Below are positions 1 through 18,184 of a stretch of DNA of 35,766 nucleotides, piece by piece. Below the pieces are notes generated by a model. That model searched no databases. It was not told the origin of the DNA and saw nothing but the letters and a program-made list of their open reading frames with translations. The stretch's first letter is position 1. Every line of letters begins with the position of its first letter. Source of the stretch: Gammaproteobacteria bacterium. Lineage in GTDB: Bacteria; Pseudomonadota; Gammaproteobacteria; Pseudomonadales; Halieaceae. Both the position numbers and the translations under genes were made by a program. The stretch is from contig JAUIEP010000034.1 of NCBI GenBank assembly GCA_030428835.1, forward strand, positions 1 through 35,766, given 5' to 3'.

Positions 1-898
1 GAATGGGCTTGGAGCCGCGCTCGCAGAAACCGCACTGCGAGGGTTTTGTGGAAACCAGGCCGCCCTCAATCGCACTGGAGACATCGAAAATACCGTTTTG
101 GCCAACAGGAAGGTTAATGTGAAAAATCGTGAATATCTGGCCATTTGCAAGATTTGTTTCATCCAGTAATTTCGCGGCGAGCGATCCGCTGGTAGTAGCG
201 GAAATAAACACCATGCTGGTCTCATCCTCGACAAAGTCGTAGGACTGGTCCAGGGCGGCGTACGACTCAAAACTTTCTATCTCCGGGTCGCCCTCCTCGA
301 ACTCACCGTACATTCGGACGGCAATACTGATCAAAAACGCGATTGAAGAGGTATCAACGTAAATACGCTTCAGGCCAGGCTTCAAACAAGGCAACAGAGA
401 AATCGCAAGAAACGCCACCTCACCACTGGAAACCAATAAATTGGACGCGCGTATGAACTTGTCGCAATGGGCGCCCGATGGCTTGACAAAATGATACGCA
501 GTATTGGATATGATCAATCCCCGGTGCTTTCTAAAAAGCGCCAACATACCGCTTTGAAGAATGCTGGCTGACAAATCCTGGCCTGCGGCTTTTCCGTCAC
601 AGTAGGTGAGCACGCCCGAGCTGTTACCGGTAAGGCACTTTAATCCCCCGTCTATGTCTCCCACATAAACATCAAACTCGCTGACAAAACCGGTGTCGGC
701 CTTGCAGTCCTGTTGCGTATAGCCGGTTGGTGCTGCGGTTACCAGGTACACGTTCTTCGGTACGAGATTATCCGTCACATCATGCTTCAACGCCCTGACC
801 AGAGCGTCGAACTCAACCCTAGTCTCGGTAAATATCGCCAGGCTCTTTCGATAATGCTCACCAGGTTCAAAAAATCGAAAGGCGAAGCATGAGCTCAC
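1..898 (-). CDS. PRTase-like protein, last visible gene of defence-like operon (partial)
   Basis: An open frame runs from a GTG at 898-896 to the left edge of the window, giving 299 residues with no stop. The GTG overlaps the TGA of the GHKL gene (GTGA), so translation is probably coupled. Around residues 138-148 the protein reads PSGAHCDKFI, resembling the LxSGxHSDxxID segment near the N-terminus of orotate phosphoribosyltransferase-type folds. Around residues 229-245 it reads SATTSGSLAAKLLDE, placed like a PRPP-binding loop but lacking the usual DD-x-x-TTG acidic pair. A phosphoribosyltransferase-like fold is therefore a guess from motif spacing. The visible C-terminal part holds a CGFCERGSK cysteine pair. 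Its place as the last visible gene of the helicase/methylase operon suggests an accessory or effector subunit. Confidence 0.5.
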   Translation of the reverse strand, partial: MSSCFAFRFFEPGEHYRKSLAIFTETRVEFDALVRALKHDVTDNLVPKNVYLVTAAPTGYTQQDCKADTGFVSEFDVYVGDIDGGLKCLTGNSSGVLTYCDGKAAGQDLSASILQSGMLALFRKHRGLIISNTAYHFVKPSGAHCDKFIRASNLLVSSGEVAFLAISLLPCLKPGLKRIYVDTSSIAFLISIAVRMYGEFEEGDPEIESFESYAALDQSYDFVEDETSMVFISATTSGSLAAKLLDETNLANGQIFTIFHINLPVGQNGIFDVSSAIEGGLVSTKPSQCGFCERGSKPI

Positions 899-2079
899 GA
901 CTTGGCCTCCAGCGGAATAAGCAGGGTAATGGAGACACCGGCACAGCCAGCCATTTCTGTCACGGTATCAATGGCTGGCTCGCCGCTCGCCCAGTCGTAA
1001 AATCCACATTCATCGTCCGATGTATAGGGAGAGTCTACAAAGTTTCGATACAGTGCCAGGCGCCCGCTGCGCACCCTGAGGAACCCCGATAACCTGGTCA
1101 GCTTTTCCATTACTGCCGGCAAGCCGTTTCCCTTGCTGTCACGCTGCGTGGAGGTCTGGCGAAACTGGAAGCACTTCCTGAATATCTGGTACTCCTCCGC
1201 AAGTGATGGCTCGGGATTCAGCTCTGTTTGCGCGTGGTCAGCCAGCCACCGTCCACAATAGCCAAGGCCGGAATCGACTATCCCGAGTTCGACAAAGCGC
1301 CGCCGCTCCCTGGCCTCCTGTGACTCTGTACTCTTGAGGTACTGTTGCAATGCCGGTTGCCTGTCTGCAATGTTTGCACTGCTTGCGTCATCCAGATTCA
1401 GCCCGTGCGTATAGAGGATGCGGACACCCGGCCTCAACCATTCGCTGCGAGCCAGTCCGCGACTGCCATGCTGATGCGTATTCAGAAACAGCTCGTAAAA
1501 AATACGCCCCAGGCTGTCCAGCCTGTCTCCGGAAAGCGGCCTGGCACCGGCAGCGACGGACATCGACTTTTCAACCATTGCCTTGATGACAGCCTTTAAC
1601 TGCTCGGCCTGCCGGGGCTCGGCAATTTCGCCCGGTTTTTCAATATAAAAATTGCGGTCGAAGGCCTTTGAGCTGTGATCCACAAAGGCAAACCAGGACA
1701 ATCTTCCCCGTTGCTGGCCGTATGGGCTTCTGGCTTGCCCCTCGATCGCATCCCTGGCCTGAAGGTTAATGTTAGCCCTTACATCGACATCGGGATTGTC
1801 AGCCATAGTGATCGATTTGGCGCACATGGCGGCCGCAAATTTATGAGGGCGCTCAAGAATATCGGCCAGCACGTCACGTTTGGCACTTGGGCGTATAAGC
1901 ACTTGTCGCTGCTCGCCAGCTCTCACCCAGGTGTTAGCCGCCTGAACTGCGCTTGCCAGGCCGCCGAAGGCCGGCGCGAACGTATCAACAGGCAGTTCTA
2001 ATATTTGCTCCCCACCAGATTGCAACTTCACCATAAACTGTTCGCAGGCTTCGATGGTGATGGTTTTGGGGAAGTCCAT
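895..2079 (-). CDS. GHKL-fold ATPase (HATPase_c-like), no kinase domain
   Basis: This 394-aa protein has the Bergerat ATP-binding signature: an N-box at residues 193-204 (IFYELFLNTHQH, with E196 and N200), a G1 box DSGLG at 269-273, and a G2-like SKGNG at 315-319. It ends on a hydrophobic strand (GVSITLLIPL). There is no phospho-acceptor histidine domain, transmembrane segment or receiver. The N-terminal ~60 residues (LELPVDTFAPAFGGLASAVQ) vaguely resemble a STAS/MlaB-like fold, which is inference. Its ATG overlaps the methylase stop by one base (TGATG), and its stop overlaps the next gene's GTG. GHKL ATPases recur in bacterial conflict systems as nucleotide-driven conformational switches. 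A stand-alone histidine kinase is unlikely. Confidence 0.75.
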   Translation of the reverse strand: MDFPKTITIEACEQFMVKLQSGGEQILELPVDTFAPAFGGLASAVQAANTWVRAGEQRQVLIRPSAKRDVLADILERPHKFAAAMCAKSITMADNPDVDVRANINLQARDAIEGQARSPYGQQRGRLSWFAFVDHSSKAFDRNFYIEKPGEIAEPRQAEQLKAVIKAMVEKSMSVAAGARPLSGDRLDSLGRIFYELFLNTHQHGSRGLARSEWLRPGVRILYTHGLNLDDASSANIADRQPALQQYLKSTESQEARERRRFVELGIVDSGLGYCGRWLADHAQTELNPEPSLAEEYQIFRKCFQFRQTSTQRDSKGNGLPAVMEKLTRLSGFLRVRSGRLALYRNFVDSPYTSDDECGFYDWASGEPAIDTVTEMAGCAGVSITLLIPLEAKS

Positions 2080-5000
2080 CAGTGCAACTCTCCCGCCTCA
2101 AGCCTGTCCCAGGCTTCCAGCACTAGCCGCCGTGTTCGGTATTCACCGAACTCGTTGATCTCCTTGTTCTTCAGCACCCGGAAGGTTTCCGAGGGGTAAT
2201 CCTCGCCCAATACATCGGCGGGATCGAGGATATAGCGCAGCTCATCGTGATTGAGGCCGTATAGTCGGGCGTAGTAGGCATCGAGCTCAGCGCGCAGTTG
2301 TGCGCGACGAGTAGGATCGAAGGCGAAAGGATCGCCGTCGTAGCCTAGATCTTTGGCCCAGAAGGCGAGGTCGTGGGCGGTGTAGGTGAGCTCTAGGACG
2401 CGCGGGACAATAAATTCGAGATCGGTGCCAACGTAGTGATCGGGGCTGAGATTCACGATTTGCTTCTTCATGTGATACTTAAGATGGGTTCCTCCGATTT
2501 TCTGACGAGCTACGAAATCATGTGTTAACGAGCACTGATCAGCCAGTAGACATGCGAGCTTTCTCCCATGGTTCCTGTCGGGAAACATCAATAATAGGGT
2601 ATCACCAGCGGCGTATCGTGGTACTACGCTCGCAATCACCGTGCGCTCGTCCGTCGACCGGCAAATATCCCGCCACCCCATCAACCAGCCCCTATCCCAG
2701 CTCTTGTCTGAAAGCTTCTGATTGATCTCACTTGCATCCATCCAATATCGCGGTGTCACGCTGAATCCCGGGTCGGCTTTTTCGTCCAGCCTGCAATCTC
2801 GGCTGTTGTCCCCTTCATATGTCGCCCAGCGGTGATCAAACTGGTGAATCATCTTGGCTTCGTACAAGGGCAGCAACCCCTCGCCAGCTTCAGAGTGAAA
2901 CAGGTGACTGTCGGACGACATGTTGTGCGTTCCCTGCATAAAGCTGATGCCCCAGGGGTTGCCGTCCTTTTTCGTCTCCTCGATCAGTACCGGCGCCGCC
3001 CGGTACAGCTTTTTGGTCAACTCCGCATCCCGCTCACTGCGGAACACCGGGCAGGTAAGGGTATTGGGGTTGATCAGGCGGAACTCTTCCGGGGTCAGGC
3101 GGAAGTGACGGCGTGTGTCGGCCAGTTGCGCCACCTGGGTGAGGAAGAAGGCGAACTCCGCCTGTTCAGCCCGGCCTAGGGTAATCAGGCAGAACTTCAT
3201 GCGGCTATCCACGTCGGTGAACAGCTTCTCTCGGTTTTCAATATCGTACAGGCTGACCAGCCGCCCTTGCTGGGAGATATAACCGAAGAACGCCTTGGTG
3301 GAATCGTCAGTGGCAATGCCGGTGGGCACAATAAAGCCAGCTCGGCCCTCTTCGGCGGTAATCTGCAACATGGTTTCGCTAAACAGTGCATAGGTATTGA
3401 CTCGCCCAACACCAGTCAAGGGGTAGCGGCCTCCCTCACTGCCTTTTACATGGGCAAAAGAACTGGCTGCGTCCAACGCGCGTTTTGCCTTGGCATAGTT
3501 CTCGTACAAGCGCACTTCGGCGGCGCATTCCTGCTCTGGATGCTCCAGCTCGGGCAGCAGGTGTTTGGCCAGCATTCCCTCGCTCAGCCACTGGATACGC
3601 TGGGTGCGCTCCGCCTTGTTCCTGGCTCCGGCCACGTCGGCATTACGGGTGGCAAAGAACTCCTCCTCTTTCAGTTCAATGTGTTCCCAGGGCGGATTAC
3701 CCAATACGCAGTCGAAGCCGCCCTCGGCGAATACCTGCGGGAAAGCCAATGGCCAATGGAACACCTGTGCGCCGGCACACGCGTGGCTGGCGGCCTCGCG
3801 CTGCGCCTGGTGCTGCGCGTTGTGGTCGTCGCTCACCAGTTCCAGGTAGAGGCTGGCGGTAGTCGGGATGGTCGCTTCACTGGTCTCGGTTTTGGTCAAC
3901 AGAAAGGCACCCAGCAGCATATCGGCGGCGTGACGCAGGGGACTGTCGTTGGCCTTCTCAAGAAAGGCTTTGTAGGCGGCCTCCTGTTCGGCGATTTCAG
4001 CAGTGCTGGTTTGCGGCATGGCCTCGATGTCGCGTAACTCGGCCAGGGCAGAGTCTGTCTTGTGGAAAGCATCCGCCTGCTCAAACTGTTTGGCCTCGCG
4101 CTTGTTGGCGATGTCCTTTAGCGCCGCGTTGTTGAGCTTGTTCAAGGCCGTGCAAACCGGCTTTTCGTCACCGGAGAGCGGCTTGAAGGCGGCCTTCGGA
4201 ATGCCGTACTCCAGCGCTTTAAGATCGGTCAGGCCCAGCAGGGCGTCGCCGCACTGCAGGTGGTGGTCGAGGAAGGACAGCGGCTGGCCCTCGGCGAAGC
4301 CCTCCAGCCACAGGGCGGTGCGGGCCAGTTCCAGCGCCATGGGGTTGCGGTCCACGCCGAAGATGCAGCGGCTCACCACCTCGCGCAGTGCCTGGCGGTA
4401 GTCTTCCGGCTTCACGGCGCCTTCCCCGGCGCGCAGTTGCGCCAGTTCCTGCGCCAGCCGGCGGGCGGCGGCGAGCAGGAAGTGGCCGCTACCGCAGGCC
4501 GGGTCGATCACGCGAATGCTCAACAGCGCTTCGGTGGGGTTCGCCCTGTTGTCTGCCAGCCGCTGTTCGATCACCGGTTCCAGTGCCGACTTGATCAATT
4601 CCTGCACCAGGGAGTCGGGGGTATAGTAACTGCCGGTGGTCTTGCGGGCATTGCCGGCGGTGGAGCCCTCGCTGGTGATGCCGACAAATCCGAAGCTCCT
4701 TGCCTGCAGATCGATTTCCGGTACCAGCTCCAGCAGGCTTTCATACACGCTGCCCAGTTCCTCCGGACCCATATTGCGGTAATCCACAGGAGCCAGGGTG
4801 GCTTTGCCGCCTCTTCCCTTGCCGCTGCTAATCGCCGCCCAGCGCAGGTGACGCATGGCGCGGAGCAGGTGGCGGTTGCTGAGGCTGGCGCCATCCAGTG
4901 CGTCGCACTGGGCCGGGTGGAACAGGCCGCCCAGCGCCGGCAGGGCCAGGCGCGGTTCACCCTCGGCCAGGCCCCTGAACACGATGCGCAGGGCCTGCCA

Positions 5001-6059
5001 CTGGTCATCGAAGCGGTTCAGGTGGCGACGCTTCAGACAAGCGTCGCGCAGGCGACCGACGGCGTAGCCCTCGGCATAGGCGCGGCGGGCCTGTTGGGCG
5101 GCCTTGCCGGTATCGTCGGGGTGCAGCACGCCGCGCTCTTCTACGCTGAAAAGGAAAATCAGCCGGTACACCAGCCGCAGCAATTGATCGAAGTAGTCTT
5201 TCCCTGTCAGTTCCCCGTTGTCCAGTTGGGAACGTAACTGATCGTTGGCCGGGTGCTGGATAAACCCCTCGCCGAGGGTGAGCAGGGCTTTTTCCACGCC
5301 GTTGCGCAGACCCTCGCGCACGCGGGTGCCCTCGGCCTTGCCGGTTTCGCGCCAGGCCTCCCAGATGCAGTGTTCCGGCTGGCCATCGAGCCCTGCGCGG
5401 CTGGCGTGCAGCAGGCGCCAGATAGTGGCGAACTCGCTGAAGCGCTGGCCTTCCAGCACATCCTGCAGGTCCAACTCCAGGAAGCTGGGGCGGGTGAGGC
5501 TGGCGGCATCACGCAGCAGGCGCAGTTGCCGGCCGTTGGTCGCCATGGCCCAGAGGTGGGCGTCGCTGGCGTTGAGCAGCTCCTGCGCTAACTGAAAGGC
5601 GGATTTCCTGCGGTTGCCGCTGCCGCCGATGGCGAAGATATCCAGGCTGTCGTCCAGCCCGGCGGTGAACGGCGCTACCACCACCGGCAAATGGCCGGCG
5701 ACAAAGGTAACGGGGTACTCCCGCTCGTTGACATGGATCGGGGCGCTGGCCTGCAGGCTGCTGTAGCCAAGGGCATCGCGCAGCAGTTCCTGCACGAAGG
5801 TGCCGCTGGCGGCCGCGGCGTCAATGTCCTCGCGCTCCAGTGCGGGGGCGAAGTGCTTCCACTGGGCACAGGCGATCTGGAAGGCGCGGCTGTAATCGTC
5901 CTTGAGCTTGAGGCCCTTGGGGGTGTGGTAGTCGGCTTCATCCTGCTGCCCGGCACGGCCCAGGGCGGCTTGTTCCAGTTGGTCGGGCAGGAACAGGCCG
6001 CCTTCCAGGGTCAGGCTGGGGAGGTTGAGAGCGCTGCTGGACCTGCGTACTTTCTTCAT
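2079..6059 (-). CDS. Eco57I/PglX-like class I SAM-dependent DNA adenine methylase (DrmMI-like)
   Basis: A large N6-adenine DNA methyltransferase of 1,326 residues. It has a YYTP motif near residue 477, the SAM-binding motif I ([11 protein letters not shown]) near 515-525, and the catalytic NPPW motif near 785. A Lys/Glu-rich, probably coiled-coil insertion lies between motifs I and IV. The long C-terminal part is typical of target-recognition regions in Eco57I, PglX and DISARM DrmMI proteins. I start it at ATG 6059, read [13 protein letters not shown], because that codon follows the TAA of the preceding 87-aa ORF by one base. The frame stays open upstream, but those 61 residues overlap the 87-aa ORF and have no protein-like character. 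No endonuclease motif is obvious, so it probably marks host DNA for the linked helicases. Confidence 0.9.
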
Positions 6060-6060
6060 A

Positions 6061-6324
6061 TTAGTTAATGACTTCCCAGTAGCCACCCTGGGTGGGGCCG
6101 TGCCGGCGGAACCGGCCTGTGCGCTTGAGTAACGCGTCGGGCTTTTCCGTGATGTCCAGCCCCACGGCGAGTCCATTGGGAGCAACGCCGAACCAGAGTT
6201 TCGCGTAGCCGTTTTTGTTGAGCATGGCGGCCAGTGACACAAGGCCCTCCTTCAACTCCGCCAGGGACTTCTTCAGTTCGCAGGTTTCGATCTCTGTAGC
6301 GGGCAGGGCAAACATGTCGGGCAA
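6061..6324 (-). pseudogene. Collapsed Schlafen/AlbA_2-type protein (87-aa remnant)
   Basis: The first ~55 residues (ELKKSLAELKEGLVSLAAML, then YAKLWFGVAPNGLAVGLDI) match the typical start of AlbA_2/Schlafen-like proteins, where E-x-K-x-S is followed by an A-x-x-N-x-x-G strand and G-V-x-x-x-G-x-x-x-G. In full-length members the GL-D-ITEK segment leads into several hundred more residues. Here it passes straight into LLKRTGRFRRHGPTQGGYWE, which resembles the winged-helix tail that ends such proteins. The simplest reading is an in-frame internal deletion that kept both ends. It starts 5 bases after the SNF2 helicase stop and ends one base before the methylase start, so translational coupling is preserved. 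It could still make a small functional protein. Confidence 0.55.
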
Positions 6325-6329
6325 CCGGC

Positions 6330-9101
6330 TCAGAGCGCATCCGGCAGCAGCACGTACACGCCGATAACATCCACCGGCAGGCAGGCGCTGACGCTGTACT
6401 GGCCCACGTCGCGGGCAGCCTCTCGCACCCGTTGGTGGTCTGCCAGCAACGTCTCGGCGCGTTGTGTGGCCAGCTCCTCCAGCTTTTGCGGGTGCTGCCG
6501 AAGAAATTCAATGGCGTGGGTCACTTCCCGGGTCATGGCGGCCGCGGGCAGGTTGCCGGTGGGAACGCACTCCAGCAACTGGTTCACCTCGTGGCCGCTG
6601 AGCCACTGCGGGTCGGTGCGGCCCCTGACCGCCAGCGCAACGGCTTCCTCAGCCATCAGCTGGAAGGGCTCGCGGCGGCGCACGTATTCCAGCTGGTGGC
6701 GCAGGCGCAGCAGGTAGAGGGTGGTGACCACTTTCACGCTGTCGGTCTCGGCGGCGGCGCAGCGGGCGGCCAGGTTGCTGTCGCCTTGCAAGCTCTCTTC
6801 CAGCAGGTGGTCGGCCAGGACGCTCACCAGCGGGTGGCTGCGGTGCAGTTCGTTGAAGTCGATCAGCAGTTCTTTATCCAGCCCCTCGTCCGCGAGGCGT
6901 TGGCGCAAGTTCTCCGGCGCGTGTTGCGACAGGAAACGATAGCGGTTGCCGCGGGCCACTTCCAGCGGGGCATTGAGGCGGGCGGCGGCGGTTCTGATGA
7001 AGCGCTGCACGTCGGCGTGGCTGCCCAGGGATTCCTGCTGTTTTTGCCACTCAGGCAGCACCTCATCGGGCTGGATGCGACGCTGGGCAAACACGGTGCG
7101 GTTGACCTTGGCCCTGGTCAGGGCATCCTGCCACTGGGTTTGCAGCGGCGCCAGGCTTGCCTCGGCATCGGCGAACATATCCTCGGTGTAGGGCGTGGTG
7201 ACGCTGGAACGTTTCATCAGGGCGGCCTTGACCAGGGCCTGGTTGATGCGGGTGTCGTCCTCGGGCATGGGCACCAGTACCCCCAGTTCTCTCTGGATGG
7301 CCTCGCCCTTGCGGAGGATAACGTTTAGCACGAAGCCGTCCACCGGGTTGTCCTGGCCGTAGAGCATGGTGCAGCGTACCTCGCCGGCCTGCTGGCCGAA
7401 GCGGTCGACACGGCCCTCGCGCTGTTCATGGCGGGTGGGGTTCCAGGCAAGGTCGTAGTGCACGACAGCCGTAAACAGGTGTTGCAGGTTGATACCCTCG
7501 GACAGGCAGTCGGTGGCCACGAGTATGCGCTGCTCGTGCTCCTCCATGTCCTCGACCTTGAGGCGGCGCTCTTCCGGGGTGAGTTCGCCGGTGACGGATT
7601 CTACGGTGGCATCGCCAAAGCGCTTTTGCAGGTGTTCGGCCACGTAATGGGCCGTGGCAATGTAGCGGCAGAATACGACGGGCTGGTAGCCATCTTTTAG
7701 CAGGCCCTCGAGGTGCTGAATCAGGGCCTTGAGTTTCGGGTCGCCCTTTTCTCCGCTGAGACGCCGGGCGTCGTCAATCAAGTTCTGCAGTGCCTGGTTG
7801 CCCAACTGTGCGGGCGGTTCGATATCGGAGGTGGAGAGGTCATCAGCTTCACCGTCGTGCAGACGCTCGTCGGCCAGCAGTTCATCCGCGCTCTGGATGC
7901 CGTCCAGACGGTTGCTCAATGCCTTGACTGCCGCGGCCGGCGACGAGGCCACGCAGCGCAACAGGGCCAGGGTGGCGTACCAGATCAGCCGGGCGCTTTG
8001 CTCGCCCTGTTGCTCAACGCTCTCGGCCAGTTGCAGGCAGTAGTTTTGCACGGCGTCAAAGAAAGCGCCCCAATCACCGCTGAGCTGGTAGGTAACCTCG
8101 GCCTTCATGCGGCGTGGAAAGCCGGTACCGTCGTTGGTTTCCGCCTGCCAATCGGTAATGTCCTTGCGGCGCCGCTGCACGAAGTGCCTCGCCAGTTCCT
8201 GTCGCAAGGGGTCATTGGCCGAGGTGCGACTCTGCAACTGGGCGAACTTGGGGTTAAGCAGTGAGATCAGGTTGTAGAAGGCTGTTTCGTCACCCGAATG
8301 GGGCGTGGCGGTGAGCATAATCAGATGGCGCTCATCGCTGGCCGCCAATCGCTGCAGTAGTTCATAGCGCAATTGCTTGCCCTGCCCGGAAGTGGCGCAG
8401 GTGTGGACCTCATCGACCACGATGCACTCCGGAGCGATAGATAGGAAATGCTCCCGGTGGCGTTCGCTCTTGATGTAGTCGAGACTCACCACCACGATGG
8501 GAAATTGATCCATCAAGCTGCTGCCGTGGGGCACCTCCCGCTCCAGTCGGGCCGCGGAGGCGGAGGTGAGTGCCACGGTGTGCAGGTTAAAGCGGTTTTC
8601 CAGTTCCGACTGCCACTGCTCCACCAGGTGAGGCGGGCAGAGCACGGCGAGGCGGGAGATTTCGCCGCGATCCATCAGTTCGCGCACGATCAGCCCTGCC
8701 TCGATGGTTTTGCCGATACCGACGTCATCGGCGATCAACAGGCGAACGGTGTTAAGGCGCAAGGCCATTAGCAGGGGCACCAATTGATAGGCCCGTGGCT
8801 CCACCGCAATATTTCCAAAGGAGCGGAAGGGGCCACCGCCAGTGCGCAGTTTCAGGCGCAGGGCATCGCGCAATAACAGCGCACTGGCGTGGTTGCCGGG
8901 TTTATCAGGATCGGGCCAGGGGAAGGTGGCGGGTGCTACCGGCGCCAGCTCAAGCTCGGGGACCAGTGCGATGATGTCATCGTCCGTACCGCCCAGCGGG
9001 CGCAAACGCAACCAGTCTGCGCTGGATTCGCTCTGCACCACCCATTCGCGCCCGCGGGCGTGTACCAGGTTACCGGGCTGGTAGTTGCGCTCCTGTGTCA
9101 T
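6330..9101 (-). CDS. SNF2-type superfamily 2 helicase/translocase (DrmD-like)
   Basis: A 923-aa SF2 ATPase. Walker A is at residues 125-132 (DDVGIGKT), preceded by a SNF2-like YQLVPLLMAL segment. Motif II is DEVH at 230-233 and motif III is LTATPHSGD at 263-271. The second RecA domain carries motifs V and VI near 524-568 (ATDCLSEGINLQ, then HEQREGRVDRFGQ). The N-terminal 60 residues look like a small beta-barrel. The helicase is closest in appearance to RapA/HepA-like proteins and DISARM DrmD, which translocate on duplex DNA. Its ATG overlaps the stop of the upstream helicase gene (ATGA). The context argues for phage-DNA translocation or recognition rather than RNA polymerase recycling. Confidence 0.85.
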   Translation of the reverse strand: MTQERNYQPGNLVHARGREWVVQSESSADWLRLRPLGGTDDDIIALVPELELAPVAPATFPWPDPDKPGNHASALLLRDALRLKLRTGGGPFRSFGNIAVEPRAYQLVPLLMALRLNTVRLLIADDVGIGKTIEAGLIVRELMDRGEISRLAVLCPPHLVEQWQSELENRFNLHTVALTSASAARLEREVPHGSSLMDQFPIVVVSLDYIKSERHREHFLSIAPECIVVDEVHTCATSGQGKQLRYELLQRLAASDERHLIMLTATPHSGDETAFYNLISLLNPKFAQLQSRTSANDPLRQELARHFVQRRRKDITDWQAETNDGTGFPRRMKAEVTYQLSGDWGAFFDAVQNYCLQLAESVEQQGEQSARLIWYATLALLRCVASSPAAAVKALSNRLDGIQSADELLADERLHDGEADDLSTSDIEPPAQLGNQALQNLIDDARRLSGEKGDPKLKALIQHLEGLLKDGYQPVVFCRYIATAHYVAEHLQKRFGDATVESVTGELTPEERRLKVEDMEEHEQRILVATDCLSEGINLQHLFTAVVHYDLAWNPTRHEQREGRVDRFGQQAGEVRCTMLYGQDNPVDGFVLNVILRKGEAIQRELGVLVPMPEDDTRINQALVKAALMKRSSVTTPYTEDMFADAEASLAPLQTQWQDALTRAKVNRTVFAQRRIQPDEVLPEWQKQQESLGSHADVQRFIRTAAARLNAPLEVARGNRYRFLSQHAPENLRQRLADEGLDKELLIDFNELHRSHPLVSVLADHLLEESLQGDSNLAARCAAAETDSVKVVTTLYLLRLRHQLEYVRRREPFQLMAEEAVALAVRGRTDPQWLSGHEVNQLLECVPTGNLPAAAMTREVTHAIEFLRQHPQKLEELATQRAETLLADHQRVREAARDVGQYSVSACLPVDVIGVYVLLPDAL

Positions 9102-12100
9102 GCGCTGGCTTCCTTGTCGGCACCGAAGATCTCGGGGTGTTGGCCGAACAGGGTATCCCAGCCCATGGCGTCAGATGCATCCAGGCAGTGCCATCCCTTG
9201 TCGCTTAATTGCTGAATGATCTCGATTGCCGGCCACTGGGTAAATAATAGTGCCCGGGCGGCCTTGTATTGCGCGATCGCAGTGGCCGTGCCGCCGGAGA
9301 CCGGCACAAAAGTCGCGTCGGGCGCATTCAATCCCTGTTGGGCGATGGCATCCAACAAGGCCTGCCCCTCATCGTCCTCGCCCTGCCGGGTCGCAGTGAC
9401 AGCGATCCCAGTGCCGGGGGTAACGTTTGCATTGGCGAGCGCCACGAGCAGTCGCAGCGCATCCTCGTCGCGGCGGTTGATATTCTCGTGATCTGGCTGG
9501 TTGTAGTAGGAGAGCAGGCACTGGTAGCAGCCAGCCTCACACAGAGCGTTGTCCAACTCGTCTTTCTTCTCCAGTTGGGCCAACTGTTGGAAATCCCAGG
9601 GGCCAGAGGGCACATTGAAGTGCATAATCTCCAGCGCCTTGCCGGCTACCAGTGACAGGCTTTCGGGGTCGGTCGAAAGGCGCGTCAGCACCCCGGCGCC
9701 CCCCTCGGCGGCCTCGTAGAACAGCAGTGACTTTCTGTCGTCCTGTTTCGGCAGCGGTTCCGCAACAAGCTCCGACTCCTCGATTTGGAAGGTCATCTCA
9801 ATACCGCGCTTCAGGGCCGCTTGCACCGTGGCCATAGTTTCAACAGTAAGCATTTGGGGCGGGCTGAGAATCAGCAGGTTTCGGTGGTCTTCCACGAAGG
9901 GCACAATACGCTGGTTGGGGACCTTGTCCACTGTCGCAGGCTCATTGCTGGACTCCTCCTCGCTATTCGGGTCGTCCTGCTTGCTCCACATGCCGCTGAT
10001 GGGATTGATATAAAAGCCAAGCTGGTTCTTATCCTTGCGCCGGCGCCAGCCGCGATTAATGCGCCAGATGCGGGCGGCTGGGGCGTAGGTCAGTTCAGCC
10101 AATAGACCTTCTTCACTCTCTACCATGGCTTTCTGCTGCTGGATTTTGCCGTCGGTGCCCGGCAGAAAGCGGTAGGTGGTCTGTAATTCAAAACCCTGCC
10201 GTTGGCGGTCTTCATCGTTGATCGAAATACGCTCAACAGGTAGCGTTTCCACCGTTTCAATACGGTAAAGCTCTTTCACCCAGTCGTCTTCGGTCAACAA
10301 AGCATCACAGTTTTCACAGCGCTCCACCAGAGGCTCGCCGCCACCTGGCTGGCCCAAGTGCCCGTAACCACACTGACTGCACACCCTTGAGGTAACCGTG
10401 GAAAGGGTACTGTTACCCGAGATATGGTCACTGCTGCCGACATTCAATTTGGCGCGTACTACCCGATACATGCGGCCCTGGTGGTAGATCAGGCTGCGCG
10501 GTCCGAATTCCGAGAGCGCCAGAAAACGCGGCCTGCTGACCATACTTCCTTCATCGTCCGTACCGCCAGCCTGACCACCTCGGGCCGGTATCCAGGCCAT
10601 CAGCGGCAGGCGGGGAAAATTATAGCCTGGCAGAAAACCCTGGCTTGCGAGGTAGCGGTAGGTGTAGAAATCGGAGTTCTGGGTGTTGCCGGATTTCAAA
10701 AGTATGCCGTACTGGTTGGCGGCGTCGCCCCAGCGCCGCTTGGCGTTGGTTCGCTCCCGGTCGCTGGCGGTGTGGCTTTTGGCAATCGCGTCGGCCATGT
10801 CCATCTGCTTGCGGGTGGCCTCGAACAATGCCCGCCAACGGTCTAGCGCCTGGGAAAAAGCCGAGGGCGCGTGGTTGATAACGGAATCGATGTAATCCGG
10901 GCTGAACCAGTGACTGGTATTCAATTCGCTTTCAAGCTGATCGATTACTCCTTGTGCTGCAGCTCCGGCCTTCTCGGTAACGGCCGGGGCTGACAGTTTC
11001 TGCGCGAGAGCCGCCTGTAGCGGCTTACCCTCCTGGTCCAGGTCGAGCAGGGGGGCTATGCTGCTGTCGAGTTCGACCTCGGCGCAGGCGAGCCAGACCG
11101 CGTGCAAGTGACTCTCGATCAGCTCGCGATTGCCCAAGTCCAGCGTCGGTGCTTTCACAATCCCGTGGACCATGTCATTGGCATTGTTGAAAAACCACTG
11201 ATCATGGGGGCTCTGTGAAGCGCAGTACGTGATCACCAGCGCCTGTTGCCCGGAGCGCCCTGCGCGACCGCTACGTTGGGCGTAGTTGGCCGGAGTGGGC
11301 GGGACGTTGCGTAGGTAAACCGTGTTCAGTGCAGATATATCCACACCGAGTTCCATGGTCGGCGAACAGAACATCACGGGGAGGCGTTCCAGCGGTGCCT
11401 CATGTCCAGGTTCTTCCAGCCACTCCTTGCGGTCCTTCTCTGTGTAGCGAAAGCGCTGTTCCAATAGCTGCCGTCGGGCAGCATCGACCTGGGCGGTATG
11501 CTCCTGTGCTTCGAAGGAGAAGAGCGGGTGACTCGGTTGCTGCAGCAACTGGGCCAGGTTCAGGTACAACATGCGGAAATAGCGGTTACCGGAGCTGACG
11601 TCGGCCTCAGGGCCCCCGGCGAAATGCCACTCCAGCGCCGCAGCGTTGAGGCGATAACCCGCCAGCCCCTGCTCGATCTTGTGCTTCTGGATATAGCCAT
11701 AGGGCACCGCCGTTTCGAGTAAGGCTTCCACAAGCTCTACCCACTCCGCCTCTTTCCAGGTTGTGACCTGACTGGCAAAGGCGCTGGATTTCCAGAAGTC
11801 AGCGTTCTTGATGCTTTTTACTACCCGAGAACGCTGGGCTCCCGATACCAAATCAGTTCTAGGCTTACCCCTGTATTCCGGACGCTTGGTCAGGATCAGG
11901 TATTTTGCCGTCTCAAGCTTTTCATCTGGTGCAAAGGCCCAGCGCTCGTTCAGGTAACTGAAGGCACTGTTGCGGGCCTTATCCTGCTCGACAGAATCGA
12001 GGTAACGCGTCTCCAGGCAGAGGGCACGGCGCATTTCATCAAACAGGACGCGACACAAGCTGGCCCTGTTTTCAGGAGTCAGTTTGGCCAGCACGGCATG

Positions 12101-14386
12101 CTTGCTGTCATTGAACAGTTCGTCCTCCGCGCAGAAGGACTCCAACTCCCGGTAATCTATCCGCAACAACGCAAGCTGGTCCAGGTTAGGGTTGTTGAAG
12201 CGCCAGCCGCGGCGCAGGTCCCGGATCAGGCGGTAACCCAGAATATACCGCAGCGTGCGCTGCGCCTCCTGGCGCGCGATACCCATTAACTTGGGTGTGC
12301 GCAGGTACTCAGCCAGGGTCGATTCTTCAACCTGGTCAAATCCGAGGGATCTGAAAACTTCTTCCGCGAGCTTTTCCTCATCGAGTTGGTTGTTGTTTGC
12401 CTGTAGTGCGCCTATTAAACCGGCGCGAATGGTCAGCAGGAATATGAAGTCATTAAAGTGGCCTGCCTGAAGCGCAGCATCCTGTCGGTTGTCACTAAAG
12501 CCAAGCAGTTTGCGGGGATCGGGCACGCCCTCGGGCAGGCTTTCGATAGCAAAGAGCTGACGCAGGGCGGCCAGCGTCAAAACGGTTGTGGCGGAGGACC
12601 GGCCTTCGCCGGAGAGACTGGCAAGCCGGTTGATGTCCTTACCATGAGCCTCGTGCAATTGTCCGCAGTTCAGGCAGAACCGGAATTTCCCCGGAATGTA
12701 CCAGTAGCCTTCACCGCGGCCCTCCAGTCCCTGTGGATCAACATCACACTGGATGGGTATGGCTTTCTTGTAAGTACTTTTTACCTTCGGCTCGGCCTTC
12801 GACAAATCAATCCAGGACTCGGGCAGGTCCTCCATGGCACCGGTGTAGCCCTGTCCGTCAGTGATAGGGCAAAGGAAACCGAAAGCCTGTTCTTCGTTAT
12901 CCGCCGTGGTGATGTCGTCGATGTCCCGTGGATCAAAGCGACTCTGGCCCTGTAGCGATCTCCATACAGTGTGGTATTCCTGGCCACAATCCCGGCAAAA
13001 ATGAGTTGAATAGAGTTGAACCGACTCTTGCTGCCGACCCGGTGCATAGCGTTGTGCGTCGAGTGTGACTGTTCTTCTGCCCCTGGGTTCCAGGGTTGCC
13101 AACACCTTGCCAGGTCCACTGATGAACTGGTGCAACTTGAATGCAAAGGGGGGACGACCCTGTGGCGATATCACGTCATGGGCTGCAACCAGAAAGTGCT
13201 GAAGAGCTTCAGCCGCCTCAGGGGACGAAATACCTGCATCCTCCGCCAGCAACGCGGCCGCCGACTCCACAGTCTTTGGCTTAGCGCGTTTAGGAGGTTC
13301 TCCAGCGGAAATTTCTATACCAAGATTTAGCTCAACCCAGATGGCCAATGGAGAAACTCTGAATTCTTCAAAGCTATGCCAGGCAAAATCAGCTTCTTGT
13401 ATTTCATCGCGGAGTAATGGCTTAACGGCGTCAATCCCCTTCGAGGGATCGGTCACGCGCTCCAAGGTCTCGCCAATGACATCGTGCTCAGTGACAGTGG
13501 CGCCAAATAACTTACTGGCAACGCTGGCAACGACACGATTGCGATCCGCTTGTTTGCCCGTACTGGACATGGTTGCGGAAGTGCCGATGCAGGTCATTTC
13601 GGGTGCGGACAGGCGCTCTCGCAGTCTACGCACCAGTACCGCGACATCTGCACCCTGCCGCCCACGATAGGTATGCAGTTCGTCCAAAATCAGGAACTCA
13701 AGGCCCCCGCAATTTTCTACCACCCGCCTGTCCACATCCTCATAACGCGTGAGGATGAGTTCCAGCATCATGAAATTGGTTAGTAGAATGTCAGGTGGGT
13801 TACTGGCGATTGCTTCTCGCTGTTCTTTGCTCTCCTGGCCTGTATAGCGTGCCACACTAAAGGGCCTGGAAGCTTCGGGAAAGTCCAACAGAAATTTGTC
13901 TAGTTCCTCAAGCTGGCTGTTTGCCAGTGCGTTCATGGGGTAGATAACTATCGCGCGGGTGCGGGACTTAGGGTCCTGTTCCTTGCCTTTGAGGATGGAA
14001 TCGATAACGGGAATAAAAAACGCGAGTGATTTGCCGGAACCCGTGCCGGTTGTCACCACATAGCTTTTTCGGTCCTTTCCCTTAGCGATGGCCTCTATCT
14101 GGTGTTTGTAGAGGAATAAGGGGTCGGATTTTCCCTCGGCCTTACCGGTTCTGAATATGTCGCCACACCGCGGGTGCAAGACCCCTTGATCGGCTAATTC
14201 CTGGACACTGCCCTTGCGCTGGTAGTTCGGGTTTATCTGGATCAGTGGTTGGGGCCAGTAGCGGCCTTCCGCATATTCCCGCTCGACGGCGGTTGCGATG
14301 TCATCGGCCGCAATGTCTACAAAACTTCTGGAAAAAGCGCTGTATTCACTTATTAGCTCGTCCCTGAAGCTGAAAACGTTTTCCAT
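9098..14386 (-). CDS. Giant DEAD/DEAH-box helicase with DUF1998-like C-terminus (DrmA/DrmB- or DruE-like)
   Basis: A 1,762-aa SF2 helicase and the first gene of the operon. It has Walker A TTGTGSGKS at 112-120, DELH at 235-238 and SAT at 270-272. The second RecA domain near 1005-1047 includes ELGVDISALNTVYLRNVPP and the arginine-finger motif QRSGRAGRSGQ. Three zinc-ribbon-like cysteine sites occur near 461 (CRDCG), 565 (CLNCG) and 1332-1360 (CSQCG paired with CENCD). The end has the DUF1998 hallmark near 1614-1637 (CEAGCYQCLLSYYNQPDHEN). Such fusions are known from Druantia DruE and YprA/MrfA relatives. In DISARM the two halves are separate proteins, DrmA and DrmB. Neighbouring DrmD- and DrmMI-like genes favour a DISARM-like role. 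Its ribosome site is weak (AAAAGACC). Confidence 0.85.
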   Translation of the reverse strand: MENVFSFRDELISEYSAFSRSFVDIAADDIATAVEREYAEGRYWPQPLIQINPNYQRKGSVQELADQGVLHPRCGDIFRTGKAEGKSDPLFLYKHQIEAIAKGKDRKSYVVTTGTGSGKSLAFFIPVIDSILKGKEQDPKSRTRAIVIYPMNALANSQLEELDKFLLDFPEASRPFSVARYTGQESKEQREAIASNPPDILLTNFMMLELILTRYEDVDRRVVENCGGLEFLILDELHTYRGRQGADVAVLVRRLRERLSAPEMTCIGTSATMSSTGKQADRNRVVASVASKLFGATVTEHDVIGETLERVTDPSKGIDAVKPLLRDEIQEADFAWHSFEEFRVSPLAIWVELNLGIEISAGEPPKRAKPKTVESAAALLAEDAGISSPEAAEALQHFLVAAHDVISPQGRPPFAFKLHQFISGPGKVLATLEPRGRRTVTLDAQRYAPGRQQESVQLYSTHFCRDCGQEYHTVWRSLQGQSRFDPRDIDDITTADNEEQAFGFLCPITDGQGYTGAMEDLPESWIDLSKAEPKVKSTYKKAIPIQCDVDPQGLEGRGEGYWYIPGKFRFCLNCGQLHEAHGKDINRLASLSGEGRSSATTVLTLAALRQLFAIESLPEGVPDPRKLLGFSDNRQDAALQAGHFNDFIFLLTIRAGLIGALQANNNQLDEEKLAEEVFRSLGFDQVEESTLAEYLRTPKLMGIARQEAQRTLRYILGYRLIRDLRRGWRFNNPNLDQLALLRIDYRELESFCAEDELFNDSKHAVLAKLTPENRASLCRVLFDEMRRALCLETRYLDSVEQDKARNSAFSYLNERWAFAPDEKLETAKYLILTKRPEYRGKPRTDLVSGAQRSRVVKSIKNADFWKSSAFASQVTTWKEAEWVELVEALLETAVPYGYIQKHKIEQGLAGYRLNAAALEWHFAGGPEADVSSGNRYFRMLYLNLAQLLQQPSHPLFSFEAQEHTAQVDAARRQLLEQRFRYTEKDRKEWLEEPGHEAPLERLPVMFCSPTMELGVDISALNTVYLRNVPPTPANYAQRSGRAGRSGQQALVITYCASQSPHDQWFFNNANDMVHGIVKAPTLDLGNRELIESHLHAVWLACAEVELDSSIAPLLDLDQEGKPLQAALAQKLSAPAVTEKAGAAAQGVIDQLESELNTSHWFSPDYIDSVINHAPSAFSQALDRWRALFEATRKQMDMADAIAKSHTASDRERTNAKRRWGDAANQYGILLKSGNTQNSDFYTYRYLASQGFLPGYNFPRLPLMAWIPARGGQAGGTDDEGSMVSRPRFLALSEFGPRSLIYHQGRMYRVVRAKLNVGSSDHISGNSTLSTVTSRVCSQCGYGHLGQPGGGEPLVERCENCDALLTEDDWVKELYRIETVETLPVERISINDEDRQRQGFELQTTYRFLPGTDGKIQQQKAMVESEEGLLAELTYAPAARIWRINRGWRRRKDKNQLGFYINPISGMWSKQDDPNSEEESSNEPATVDKVPNQRIVPFVEDHRNLLILSPPQMLTVETMATVQAALKRGIEMTFQIEESELVAEPLPKQDDRKSLLFYEAAEGGAGVLTRLSTDPESLSLVAGKALEIMHFNVPSGPWDFQQLAQLEKKDELDNALCEAGCYQCLLSYYNQPDHENINRRDEDALRLLVALANANVTPGTGIAVTATRQGEDDEGQALLDAIAQQGLNAPDATFVPVSGGTATAIAQYKAARALLFTQWPAIEIIQQLSDKGWHCLDASDAMGWDTLFGQHPEIFGADKEASA

Positions 14387-14945: not shown

Positions 14946-15163
14946 CGGCAGACATATCGGCCAGACTCACCGATGCGCTGCAGCAGGTAGCGTGAATAGT
15001 GACCTCTAAATAGCTTATATCCACGCCCTTTCAGGCAATCCATTACAGTGCTTAATGCCTGGCGCTTATCACTGGTCAAAGTGGCATGGCGACGGAAGTC
15101 CGTCAGAAGTTCCGACAGTTCGTCATCCAGCCTGTCCTCCACGAGCTCCCTTCTAGGTATCAC
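14942..15163 (-). CDS. Hypothetical 73-aa protein, coupled to HD-domain gene
   Basis: It starts with GTG at 15163, overlapping the HD gene's TGA (GTGA), and ends in an ATGA overlap with the truncated ORF that follows. The protein is charged and predicted helical (DRLDDELSELLTDFRRHATL in its first half), with no recognisable domain, signal peptide or membrane segment. Overlaps on both sides argue that it is translated. It may be a partner of the HD protein. Confidence 0.45.
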   Translation of the reverse strand: MIPRRELVEDRLDDELSELLTDFRRHATLTSDKRQALSTVMDCLKGRGYKLFRGHYSRYLLQRIGESGRYVCR

Positions 15164-15633
15164 CTTAGAGACCTCTCATATGCCTCAATCACCATCTCCG
15201 GGTTCTTCGCTACCTCAGTACATAATCTCTGCGGGTCAGGCCGAATCCCCACCCTTCCTAGGTCCAGCCTGTCCGCATCCCAGCAAGTCATGACTGTTAT
15301 ATCGGCCTCCAGGTGCCCATCGCTATGCCAGGTACACGCGTGCTGGAGCAGTCGCAGCTCCGCCGCAGTGACGTCGATCAGGTCTCCAGCGAGCTGTGTC
15401 GCAATCTCCGCGGCCCGGTGGCCATGCTCGGGGTCGTGATGCTCGTTTTCCCTGCCCAGGTCATGGATGAACGCGAAGTACTCCACCACCTTGGCATTGG
15501 CGCCGGTATGCTCCGCTAACAGCAGCCCGTTATGGCGCACCCGGGCCCAGTACGACACACCATGGTACCCATCCCAATCCAGGGCAAAGCGTTGTCGCGC
15601 AAACTTCATTAAGCTCTTTGTAATCAGTGACAT
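15160..15633 (-). CDS. HD-domain phosphohydrolase-like protein
   Basis: A 157-aa protein with HD-superfamily metal ligands: H24 in DGYHGVSYWARV, the HD doublet H57-D58 in FAFIHDLGRENEHHD, further histidines at 65-71, and a late Asp in CWDADRLDLGRVG. The WDADRLDLGR signature occurs in small stand-alone HD hydrolases of unknown substrate, probably nucleotide phosphates. GGGGA precedes the ATG. It follows the ARPP-1 gene and a 30-codon ORF by 12 bases and overlaps the next gene by four, so these genes are probably co-translated. Confidence 0.75.
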   Translation of the reverse strand: MSLITKSLMKFARQRFALDWDGYHGVSYWARVRHNGLLLAEHTGANAKVVEYFAFIHDLGRENEHHDPEHGHRAAEIATQLAGDLIDVTAAELRLLQHACTWHSDGHLEADITVMTCWDADRLDLGRVGIRPDPQRLCTEVAKNPEMVIEAYERSLR

Positions 15634-15645
15634 AGCTATCCCCGT

Positions 15646-15738
15646 TTATTGACGCCCGGCGGCGGACATAGCACCGCCGGCGTCAGGGCGATGGAACGCC
15701 AATTTCCGCCATTCCTCAGGCAAGTATGGTTCAGCCAT
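15646..15738 (-). CDS. 30-aa ORF between ARPP-1 and HD genes
   Basis: This ORF overlaps the last 8 bases of the ARPP-1 gene (ATGGCTGA) and ends 12 bases before the HD gene. It reads MAEPYLPEEWRKLAFHRPDA and ends in a short tail. It fills the gap between two coupled genes, which suggests either a real micropeptide or a translational bridge. No homologue is recognised. Confidence 0.35.
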   Translation of the reverse strand: MAEPYLPEEWRKLAFHRPDAGGAMSAAGRQ

Positions 15739-16771
15739 CACCAGCCGCATCGATACCGTCGATAAACAGGTCATCAATGGACGAACTGGTTCGGTAGCTA
15801 CGCCGCTGACTAGTCCGACGCATCCGCCCGCGAGTCCCGAGGCTCCCCGCCTCCGACTCCTGGCTGAAAGCACACAGGTGCACGACCCGATCCCTCGCCG
15901 CCAGGGCACCGCCGGCGATATGCGTGGACCGGATGCGCAGGTCCTCGCCCTCGCCCAGGGCGTCGGCGCTGACCACCGGGGCCGAGCGCACACCCTGCAG
16001 GAAGGCCTGCACCCGTGACTCGCCGGACCCCGGCGCCTGGCCGCGCTCCTCGATGGCGTCGAGCGCGTAGCTGCGGACCAGCTTGGGCATCAGCTTGCCG
16101 CAGGTGTCCGAAGCGTCGAACAGTTCAACCCCGCGGATGGTTCCGTTGATGGCGAAGCACGCGCCCACCTGGGTGGGCTGCACCGTGAAGGCGCCGACGT
16201 ACTCGTCCACAGACCCCGAGAACTGCTCGAAGACGTCGGCGATGGCCTGCGTTCTGGAGTCCACACGCATGCTGTCCATCTTGCTCGAGATATCGTCCCA
16301 GACTTCCGTTTGGTTGGTGCGCCGGGTCCCCATCATCGCGATGTCTTCGCTCACGTGCGCTGCTTTGCGGGCCCGGCCTTTGCTGTAGAGGGCGCGGTCC
16401 GAGGAACAGAATTCGCGGGTCGTGTGATTCCAACGCCCCGCTTCCACGCAGGACACGGGGATGTGCAGGCGTGACCGCGGCGGCACCAGCACCGTCAGGT
16501 TGAGGATGCGGTTCTGCTTGGCGCCGACCAGTTCCTCGCCGTCGAGCAGAAATACGGCGACGTCCGCCGCATTCTCCAGCAGCAGGGTCGGCACGCTGCC
16601 AGACTCGCTTACTTCGGTGACCGTCGCCAGGCCTTTCTCATGTGCCTCGTCCAGCGTGAGGTAGTCGGCCTTGAGCGGCTCGAAGGCCAGTAGCGGCGTG
16701 ATCTGCAGGTTCTGGAATACCTGGGCTTCGCCCAGCCTGATGTTTGCCAATGCTTCGTTGATAGCAGTCAT
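15731..16771 (-). CDS. ARPP-1 family domain protein
   Basis: This 346-aa protein shows the ARPP-1 signature in its N-terminal third: a hydrophobic stretch FLLDGEELVGAKQNRILNLT near 75-95, then VLVPPRSRLHIPVSCVEAGRW. As I recall, ARPP-1 stands for ARG- and rhodanese-phosphatase-superfamily-associated protein, a domain of unknown biochemistry often seen beside phosphatases or conflict genes. The C-terminal 60 residues are Arg/Ser-rich and probably disordered. GAGGAAG lies 7 bases before the ATG. The gene leads a coupled set (30-aa ORF, HD protein, 73-aa ORF, truncated ORF), so the HD enzyme may be its functional partner. Confidence 0.8.
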   Translation of the reverse strand: MTAINEALANIRLGEAQVFQNLQITPLLAFEPLKADYLTLDEAHEKGLATVTEVSESGSVPTLLLENAADVAVFLLDGEELVGAKQNRILNLTVLVPPRSRLHIPVSCVEAGRWNHTTREFCSSDRALYSKGRARKAAHVSEDIAMMGTRRTNQTEVWDDISSKMDSMRVDSRTQAIADVFEQFSGSVDEYVGAFTVQPTQVGACFAINGTIRGVELFDASDTCGKLMPKLVRSYALDAIEERGQAPGSGESRVQAFLQGVRSAPVVSADALGEGEDLRIRSTHIAGGALAARDRVVHLCAFSQESEAGSLGTRGRMRRTSQRRSYRTSSSIDDLFIDGIDAAGDG

Positions 16772-17054
16772 AGTGCTCTTCCTCTATTCCAATCTGTCTG
16801 TTGCTAATGTGGCTGTTCCGGCCTTTTCTCGGGCAAGGCTTCGCCCCGGGCCTGTTCTCTCACTCCTGGCCCGTATGCCCGTTCTCTGTGTTTGCCGCCC
16901 GCGGCCTGCGCATGGCAGGTGGCTGCTCGCCGGTGTCGCGAGGGTTCGTACCGCAGGATGGTAATGGTAGTTGCGGGCGCGAACTTATCCACGATGTACG
17001 CATGTACACGTACTATTTTCGAGCACATGCGGCCGACAACCGGCTCCACCTGTG

Positions 17055-17105
17055 TCACGGCTCGACGCCATACGAAACGGCAAGGGCTTTGAATGTCGTA
17101 CCCAT
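17055..17105 (-). CDS. 16-aa leader-type mini-ORF after RNA motif copy A
   Basis: GGAGGAG sits 5 bases before ATG 17105, one of the strongest ribosome sites in the window. The frame stops after MGTTFKALAVSYGVEP. The equivalent position after motif copy B starts an 83-codon gene. It may be a leader peptide or the stump of a lost gene. Confidence 0.35.
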   Translation of the reverse strand: MGTTFKALAVSYGVEP

Positions 17106-17149
17106 GATGTTCTCCTCCGTGTATTGATCGGGGACCAACAAGAAAGGCA

Positions 17150-17256
17150 CGGAGATAGGGATAACCTGCTTGGTTGCCGTATCGGCCGCATCTCTTTACA
17201 GAAGCCACCTTGCCCAGATTCGGCAGGTTGGCAGGGCTTGCGCCCTTCTTGATGCT
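17150..17256 (-). ncRNA. Candidate structured leader RNA, copy A
   Basis: The minus-strand sequence folds by eye into successive hairpins. The first is AGGGC-GCAA-GCCCT. The second pairs CCA/CCT/GCC with GGC/AGG/TGG through bulged adenines. The third pairs TTCT with AGAG. The fourth pairs GATA with TATC and encloses AACC/GGTT. Copy B at 18185-18293 has the same order. Several pairs differ between copies while staying paired (CCC/GGG versus TCT/AGA; C-G versus A-T). The copy lies about 45 bases before a strong ribosome site. It could be a cis-regulator, part of a mobile repeat, or a small RNA. Confidence 0.5.
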
Positions 17257-17336
17257 CGTGCGTGAGTCTAAGTCAATCCAGCGGTTCCTTCATTGGTTGT
17301 ACATTTGCACACGTAAGGTTTTCAAGCACATCCTGA

Positions 17337-17900: not shown

Positions 17901-18148
17901 TGTTCCTCCTCGTTGTTGCCCGGAACACTCGCCCGGTTCCAGGGAAGTACCACGGTTAAGCCCCGATCGTATTCCTCGTCCGATGCCCCGAACTCAGCCA
18001 TGAACTCCTCATCAGACAGCTCGGGCATCGGCTCCAGCCCGGTATCGAATCGTCTCGAGACAGCTTCACTTTCGCGTTCGGAGACCTTCTCCCCGTACCC
18101 CTCGCGGCGTTTGCCGGGCGGGCCCGCGGAATTCTGAAAAGCATGCAT
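17897..18148 (-). CDS. 83-aa acidic hypothetical protein, first gene of MESH1-like operon
   Basis: AGGAG lies 7 bases before ATG 18148, just downstream of structured RNA copy B. The N-terminal half is basic and polar. The C-terminal half is strongly acidic (PELSDEEFMAEFGASDEEYD), followed by a hydrophobic LTVVLPW patch. No signal peptide or membrane helix is seen. It overlaps the hydrolase gene by 4 bases, so co-expression is likely. I do not recognise the family; a regulator, adaptor or antitoxin-like partner are all possible. Confidence 0.55.
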   Translation of the reverse strand: MHAFQNSAGPPGKRREGYGEKVSERESEAVSRRFDTGLEPMPELSDEEFMAEFGASDEEYDRGLTVVLPWNRASVPGNNEEEQ

Positions 18149-18184
18149 ATTCGTGCTCCTGTCAGGCTGGTCAGGAACATCGGG

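Follow-up and report, generated by a model that had tools for sequence, protein, structure and literature searches.

The closest described relative of the locus studied here is ARMADA Type I which, in the accessible text of the preprint of Bell et al. (2025; PMC12458937), consists of a YprA helicase, then a BrxHII/RapA-like SNF2 protein and then a PglX-like methylase, generally in that order. The same text places the ARMADA helicase nearer to DruE of Druantia and describes the helicases of both Type I and Type II as ending in a predicted active Vsr nuclease. In this work we have examined a window of 35,766 nucleotides, which is the whole stretch analysed, from a Gammaproteobacteria bacterium of the Halieaceae (contig JAUIEP010000034.1); the window starts at base 1 of the contig. 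Six minus-strand open reading frames (ORFs) at 2-14386 form the operon in question. We assign its core to a predicted nuclease-dead lineage of ARMADA Type I, and behind its methylase lies what we interpret as an exchangeable slot, occupied here by the candidate defence pair PDC-M65. A first-pass annotation had described six ORFs with overlapping or near-zero junctions, and all of them are present in the order which it gave:

9098..14386, minus strand: YprA/MrfA-like (DUF1998/MZB) superfamily 2 helicase, 1762 aa, the first ARMADA Type I core gene (Pfam DEAD, Helicase_C and MZB; DruE-like)
9101..9529, minus strand: C-terminal region of this helicase at the Vsr position, a predicted pseudonuclease with its presumed catalytic residues lost (tail alignment; DUF559 result)
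6330..9101, minus strand: SNF2/RapA (BrxHII-like) helicase, 923 aa (Pfam SNF2 and Helicase_C; PADLOC and NCBIfam scores)
6061..6315, minus strand: scar of a SLFN/AlbA_2-HATPase gene, 84 aa (tblastn and blastp; Pfam SLFN_AlbA_2 below cut-off)
2079..6059, minus strand: PglX/Eco57I-type N6-adenine methylase, 1326 aa counted from its ATG (the mechanical ORF extends to 6242), short form without a C-terminal extension (Pfam Eco57I)
895..2079, minus strand: GHKL-like ATPase, PDC-M65A, 394 aa (PADLOC model, E 1e-39; motifs)
2..898, minus strand: PDC-M65B, PRTase-like, first 299 residues only, cut by the contig end (PADLOC model, E 1e-38)

The junctions are overlaps of 4, 1 and 4 nt and gaps of 14 and 1 nt. 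The Pfam matches agree with the earlier naming of a DUF1998-like helicase, a SNF2 helicase and an Eco57I-like methylase, and each protein carries the motifs of its family: GSGKS at residue 116 and DELH at 235 in the YprA-type helicase, GIGKT at 128 and DEVH at 230 in the SNF2 helicase, DPACGSG and NPPW in the methylase. ARMADA Type I helicases are characterised by a BrxA-like insert, a beta-barrel Zn module and a MarR-like domain; in the YprA-type helicase of the window, CxxC pairs stand at residues 464, 571, 1336, 1357 and 1620. By PADLOC models this helicase scores 283 bits as DruE, 102 as DpdJ and 59 as DrmA. The SNF2 protein groups with DrmD/DpdE/BrxHII-like proteins and the methylase with DrmMI and type IIG enzymes (PADLOC, NCBIfam, Pfam). 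The PADLOC model PDLC02853, named DpdE, gives 700 bits to the SNF2 protein over nearly its full length; ARMADA-like proteins may have been among those used to build it.

Gene set and order are the same as in ARMADA Type I, and the helicase is nearer to DruE than to DrmA or DpdJ as judged by profile bits, not by the published tree. There are also differences from the system as far as its accessible description goes: the Vsr domain is predicted to be active there whereas its residues are lost in the window helicase, the window adds an AlbA_2 scar between the SNF2 and methylase genes, and relatives of the window add a variable slot and an HNH gene. Because 55 otherwise typical relatives also lack the Vsr residues, we assign the window to a Type I lineage with a dead nuclease rather than calling it a full match. 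ARMADA Type II, which has the reversed order and a GajB-like helicase with a RelE domain, was rejected, since the order differs and no such gene is among the six, the contig end leaving genes beyond these six out of view. Druantia and Dpd were rejected because only their helicases match; DruE is the closest PADLOC profile to the window helicase, but no other Druantia gene occurs among the best 25 matches for each protein.

Relatives were drawn from plasmids, from whole genomes and from a methylase-alignment scan of a species-genome collection. The scan found 218 relatives, the best 80 of which were kept (80 loci, L047-L126). Three of the four rows in its query came from loci with dead-type helicases, namely the window, L038 (same contig as L106) and L019, so these 80 loci are biased toward methylase kin of the window. 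One of them, L047, is a contig of a metagenome-assembled genome (JAUIIQ010000049.1) that shares 16,044 identical bp with the window and likewise stops inside the last gene; as it possibly comes from the same organism, we count the window and L047 as one case. All three core genes could be identified at 69 of the 80 loci, and in 69 of 69 their order is helicase-SNF2-methylase, which is more than chance would give. For the helicase comparison we used 77 proteins, from the 70 of the 80 loci with a helicase longer than 1400 aa (the other 10 were left out) and seven from other fetches; left off the tree were the Vsr+ helicase of L041, a full-length protein, and the helicases of L018, L032, L034 and L037, which are partial or broken, and L030 and L040 are the same contig as L116. 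The L018 copy of the operon, on an Acinetobacter soli plasmid (15001-27129), has both its helicase and its methylase broken into pieces. Scans of viral contigs found no relative of the helicase, M65A or M65B.

A DGPxH-type motif in the helicase tail is kept in 21 of the 77 proteins and gone in 56. The tail residues E, D, D, H and H, which we picked by motif and take to be catalytic by assignment from PD-(D/E)xK/Vsr enzymes, are found in 21, 21, 21, 20 and 21 of the 21 Vsr+ tails, and in 1, 8, 5, 0 and 0 of the 56 dead tails; a Tyr and a Trp are retained in all 56 dead-type proteins. DUF559 (PF04480), a Vsr-like nuclease family, scores above cut-off in three of three Vsr+ tails and in neither of two dead tails, the window's included. 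In a FastTree phylogeny with the tail region excluded, 55 of the 56 motif-less helicases form one clade with a support of 100, which contains the window through the identical L047, its representative in both tree and tail alignment; the remaining one, Hydrogenimonas L020, groups beside Vsr+ rows. The tree carries a long-branch warning for two Vsr+ rows. The clade spans Pseudomonadota, Verrucomicrobiota, Thermodesulfobacteriota, Chlorobiota and Lentisphaerota. By this comparison the window helicase keeps the Vsr region but has lost its presumed catalytic residues, and the published account of ARMADA Type I helicases as bearers of a predicted active Vsr needs to be qualified accordingly. The first-pass annotation had the nuclease absent or outside the window; what we see is a Vsr region that is present without these residues, and many related operons that end in an HNH gene.

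Clustering of the genes 3' of the methylase gave a recurring plan: an optional SMC/LmuB-like gene, variable genes and an HNH endonuclease gene. At 51 of the 80 loci (40 dead, 6 Vsr+ and 5 unclassified) a co-directional run without a break ends in the HNH gene; at 4 others this gene lies outside such a run. When only visible loci are considered, those whose sequence continues for 6 kb or more past the methylase or shows any HNH gene, the run ends in HNH at 40 of the 47 dead loci, 6 of the 12 Vsr+ loci and 5 of the 7 unclassified ones (dead versus Vsr+, Fisher p 0.017, uncorrected for kinship). The median gap inside the run is 1.5 nt (n=200). Families found at two or more loci account for 95 of 121 slot genes versus 21 of 172 genes after the HNH gene (up to five per locus), and with this sharp fall HNH marks a boundary. 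Counting ORFs of at least 100 aa behind the methylase, we found 33 make-ups at the 51 HNH loci, 26 with only families at two or more loci and 35 with the SNF2-methylase site included. Even near-identical cores differ in what follows them: among 40 dead-clade pairs whose helicase cores share 90% identity or more, 36 have different contents behind the methylase (38 when the second insertion site is counted too) and 18 have no family in common, although these pairs come from 19 loci and hence are not independent, and some of the differences amount to a single gene.

The slot contents, named by Pfam and PADLOC from representatives only, include a set of AAA_15/DUF3696, a HEC-03A-like protein and an RNA ligase; a SMEK/REase protein with a short Argonaute; and DRT1a, HEPN-RES, GmrSD (HEC-05-like), UvrD, AIPR, PDC-M04, SLFN/AlbA_2-HATPase and PDC-M65. 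In the Vsr+ locus L094 (Azoarcus) a slot protein kinase is fused to an AAA_11/AAA_12 helicase (15831-19292). Judged from gene order and content, this region is a slot with exchangeable genes, and an HNH gene often closes it. Such nesting of extra defence genes in a multi-gene restriction-like operon has precedents, as far as the accessible texts go: PADLOC HEC stands for 'Hma embedded candidates' (PMC10855318), and BREX loci carry auxiliary defence genes beside or within them (PMC12839542). The HEC-03 and HEC-05 families known from Hma also occur in the ARMADA slot. However, Hma and BREX have other cores, and the ARMADA slot lies instead behind the methylase and is often HNH-closed.

The form of the methylase goes together with what follows it. 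A C-terminal extension, meaning more than 100 residues past the last conserved motif (8 loci without the motif were not scored), is present in 31 loci and absent in 41; the SMC/LmuB-like gene follows 31 of 31 extended methylases and 0 of 41 short ones. The window has the short form, and L050 and L153, the other two loci with the pair in the slot, have the long one. A second insertion site lies between the SNF2 and methylase genes, as a SLFN/AlbA_2 gene is found there; an ORF on either strand occupies this place in 12 of the 74 loci with both genes visible. The full gene, of 475-576 aa, stands there in L053, L056, L071 and L074, the L053 copy being SLFN/AlbA_2 plus HATPase by Pfam. In the window only the 84-aa ORF is left, which up to residue 58 matches near the start of this gene and with its last 21-41 residues matches its end, and which scores 22.2 bits for SLFN_AlbA_2, under the cut-off of 25.3. 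The AlbA_2 remnant, correctly recognised at first pass, is a deletion scar. The same SLFN/AlbA_2-HATPase family is found behind the methylase in L064, L070, L076, L084 and L111. In genome G1123 three ORFs of 316, 1088 and 518 aa fill the SNF2-methylase site (L159 8291-13973).

The pair in the window's slot had been described as a GHKL ATPase and a PRTase-like protein. Both proteins match the models of the PADLOC candidate PDC-M65 and form a tandem pair with an overlapping junction; M65B of the intact relative L050, a Zhongshania locus (725 aa, 420 bits), covers model positions 1-755 of 763. The M65A motifs E..N, DxGxG and GxGL, which we take to be the Bergerat-type N, G1 and G2 boxes of GHKL ATPases, are invariant in the window protein and in six relatives with 22-45% identity to it. 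M65B has, in our reading of the alignment, two segments resembling the loop that binds phosphoribosyl pyrophosphate (PRPP), without the acidic pair. It is mainly on motifs that the two names depend, and Pfam matches are thin: HATPase_c in two of seven M65A family members (best E 0.0058) and PRTase_2 in one of seven M65B members (E 0.29). A sequence profile search of the PDB gave no match to M65B at E 1 and one chance-level match to M65A (E 0.54). AlphaFold models from two-row alignments were too poor to use, with a predicted local distance difference test (pLDDT) score of 35.6 for M65A and 35.0 for M65B. The labels 'GHKL' and 'PRTase-like', like the fold and function of PDC-M65, are therefore weakly supported suggestions.

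The pair is present in two of the 80 ARMADA loci, L047 and L050. M65A occurs in 2 of 369 genomes of the class, 6 of 398 of the phylum and 7 of 390 of the order, the window's own genome included each time. Among the 12 other M65A genomes ARMADA genes adjoin it in two, G882, which we take to be the same locus as L050 because it has the same genes, and G1123 (L153). The order is SMC-M65A-M65B-UvrD-HNH in L050, and methylase, SMC, M65A, M65B and HNH in L153, where the helicase tail is also without the motif. By gene order, PDC-M65 is placed in the ARMADA slot in three lineages (window/L047, L050 and L153). The annotation was right that a pair had been added, but it is not peculiar to the operon, as M65A mostly occurs with no ARMADA nearby. 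Among 19 M65A proteins placed on a tree, one sub-family of six unites the three that are linked to ARMADA with three that have no ARMADA nearby, and L155, the closest M65A kin of that of L050, stands without ARMADA. Since linked and unlinked proteins are intermixed, the pair has probably passed from the slot to other locations or back. Among the M65A loci with no ARMADA nearby, M65B is split or shortened in L132, L134, L135, L148 and L158. On two Rhizobium plasmids and one Agrobacterium plasmid, thyX, for a FAD-dependent thymidylate synthase, lies directly upstream of M65A-M65B (L024 13913-14851, L131 13913-14851 and L133 13473-14411), a neighbour which hints at a possible link of PDC-M65 to nucleotide metabolism.

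How might such an operon work? PglX-like enzymes methylate adenine. The accessible part of the preprint (PMC12458937) reports that the members of the YprA family studied so far act on DNA as 3'-5' helicases. It also reports that ARMADA Type II gives E. coli protection in which the cells do not die, and that all four Type II genes are required for this. We hypothesize that the Type I core works like that of Type II. Judging from the families, the methylase would mark the cell's own DNA through methylation of adenine at N6, and unmarked phage DNA or its intermediates would be engaged by the two motors, SNF2 and YprA. Cutting may have been handed from the helicase tail to a separate HNH nuclease, and the slot modules could serve as co-expressed backup effectors. 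In PDC-M65 a GHKL ATPase switch may control a PRTase-like protein binding nucleotides or PRPP and so limit infection once the core fails; as the PRPP-loop-like segments lack the usual acidic pair, M65B could be a sensor rather than an enzyme. We hold these parts with different degrees of confidence. Of the anatomy of the operon we are highly confident. We also think it likely that this is an ARMADA Type I operon of a Vsr-dead lineage with outsourced HNH cutting and with slot modules, PDC-M65 among them, as backup effectors. Whether HNH is the operon's nuclease is to us an even question, and an ATPase switch with a nucleotide- or PRPP-binding partner is offered only tentatively for PDC-M65. Perhaps nuclease-dead ARMADA Type I is a modular chassis, in which the core marks and engages DNA, the tail is a docking or sensing domain, the slot effectors, often HNH-closed, supply the killing and PDC-M65 is a new nucleotide-sensing effector; this wider picture is speculative and we rather doubt it.

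The annotation had read the operon as a DISARM variant in which DrmA and DrmB are fused, DrmC is missing and a nucleotide-sensing pair is added. Like DISARM Class 1 the window has a DrmD-like SNF2 protein and a DrmMI-like methylase, the former matching DrmD models and the latter matching DrmMI models strongly. However, DISARM Class 1 has separate DrmA and DrmB and the phospholipase D (PLD) nuclease DrmC, none of which is among the six genes, the SNF2 protein reaches 316 bits where the NCBIfam DrmD cut-off is 610, and the helicase is nearest to DruE and not to DrmA. ARMADA Type I accounts for all three core genes and for the order in which they stand, and membership of DISARM was rejected. The fusion survives as anatomy, a helicase resembling DrmA plus DrmB in one chain, and comparison with defence-system models, the check proposed at first pass, assigned the pair to PDC-M65, while the core was matched to ARMADA Type I through the definition in the preprint; we give the DISARM variant hardly any credence. 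Could the helicase tail still be a nuclease, of a kind other than Vsr? All 56 dead-type proteins have retained it, with the Tyr and Trp conserved, but the presumed catalytic residues are largely or wholly gone and neither of the two dead tails tried matched a nuclease profile, and we regard this as very unlikely. A somewhat stronger rival, though still an improbable one, is an ordinary defence island, in which an ARMADA core lies by chance beside an independent PDC-M65 without a functional slot. The solitary L155 fits such an island, as do the 12 of 12 plasmid loci and 10 of 12 genome loci at which M65A has no core gene nearby (tblastn over the fetched stretch, where some contigs end close by). 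It accords less well with the overlap of the M65A-methylase junction, with M65 at the same site in three lineages, with the drop in family recurrence past HNH and with near-identical cores carrying different contents.

Several observations weigh against our own reading, that of a Vsr-dead ARMADA operon with a slot. With M65A found mostly without ARMADA, its link to the system is by location only. No HNH gene closes the run in 29 of the 80 loci, many of them cut short, nor in 7 of the 47 visible dead loci, and the HNH gene is found behind Vsr+ helicases as well, in 6 of 12 visible loci, which weakens the idea that HNH replaces a dead Vsr, as there is no clean swap. HNH also occurs beyond ARMADA: it was found in 3 of 369 class genomes (E 1e-25), none of them among the 9 with a P0006-like helicase. 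A further co-directional gene stands next to 33 of the 51 HNH genes at a median gap of 13 nt, so HNH is not always the operon end. The window's own HNH gene would lie out of view past the contig end, and neither an HNH gene nor a second piece of M65B was found elsewhere in the assembly. Genes were, moreover, called mechanically.

Our literature search, with supplements and most subscription papers outside it, found no description of an ARMADA slot or of PDC-M65. Beyond the ARMADA description, as far as its accessible text extends, the present analysis adds the dead-Vsr lineage, the predicted exchangeable slot and PDC-M65 within it. The slot may work as a catalogue in which known immune parts stand beside unknown ones and, if it is real, ARMADA operons would be a ready place to look for defence modules. 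Since short Argonaute, DRT1a, GmrSD and HEPN-RES are already in it, its unstudied neighbours would then be strong candidates, among them PDC-M65, the three-gene set K11-K13 and the set of AAA_15, HEC-03A and RNA ligase. The question of who cuts the DNA becomes directly testable by gene removal.

Upstream of the operon, small minus-strand genes occupy window 15160-18148, two of them HD-domain-like by eye. A transposase-like gene (19533-20886, ISL3-like by eye) adjoins tRNA-Met(cat) at 20810-20886. The G+C content per kilobase is 0.51-0.66 to the left of the transposase-like gene and tRNA-Met and 0.63-0.72 to the right, a step which indicates that the operon sits on a stretch of lower G+C that stops near tRNA-Met.

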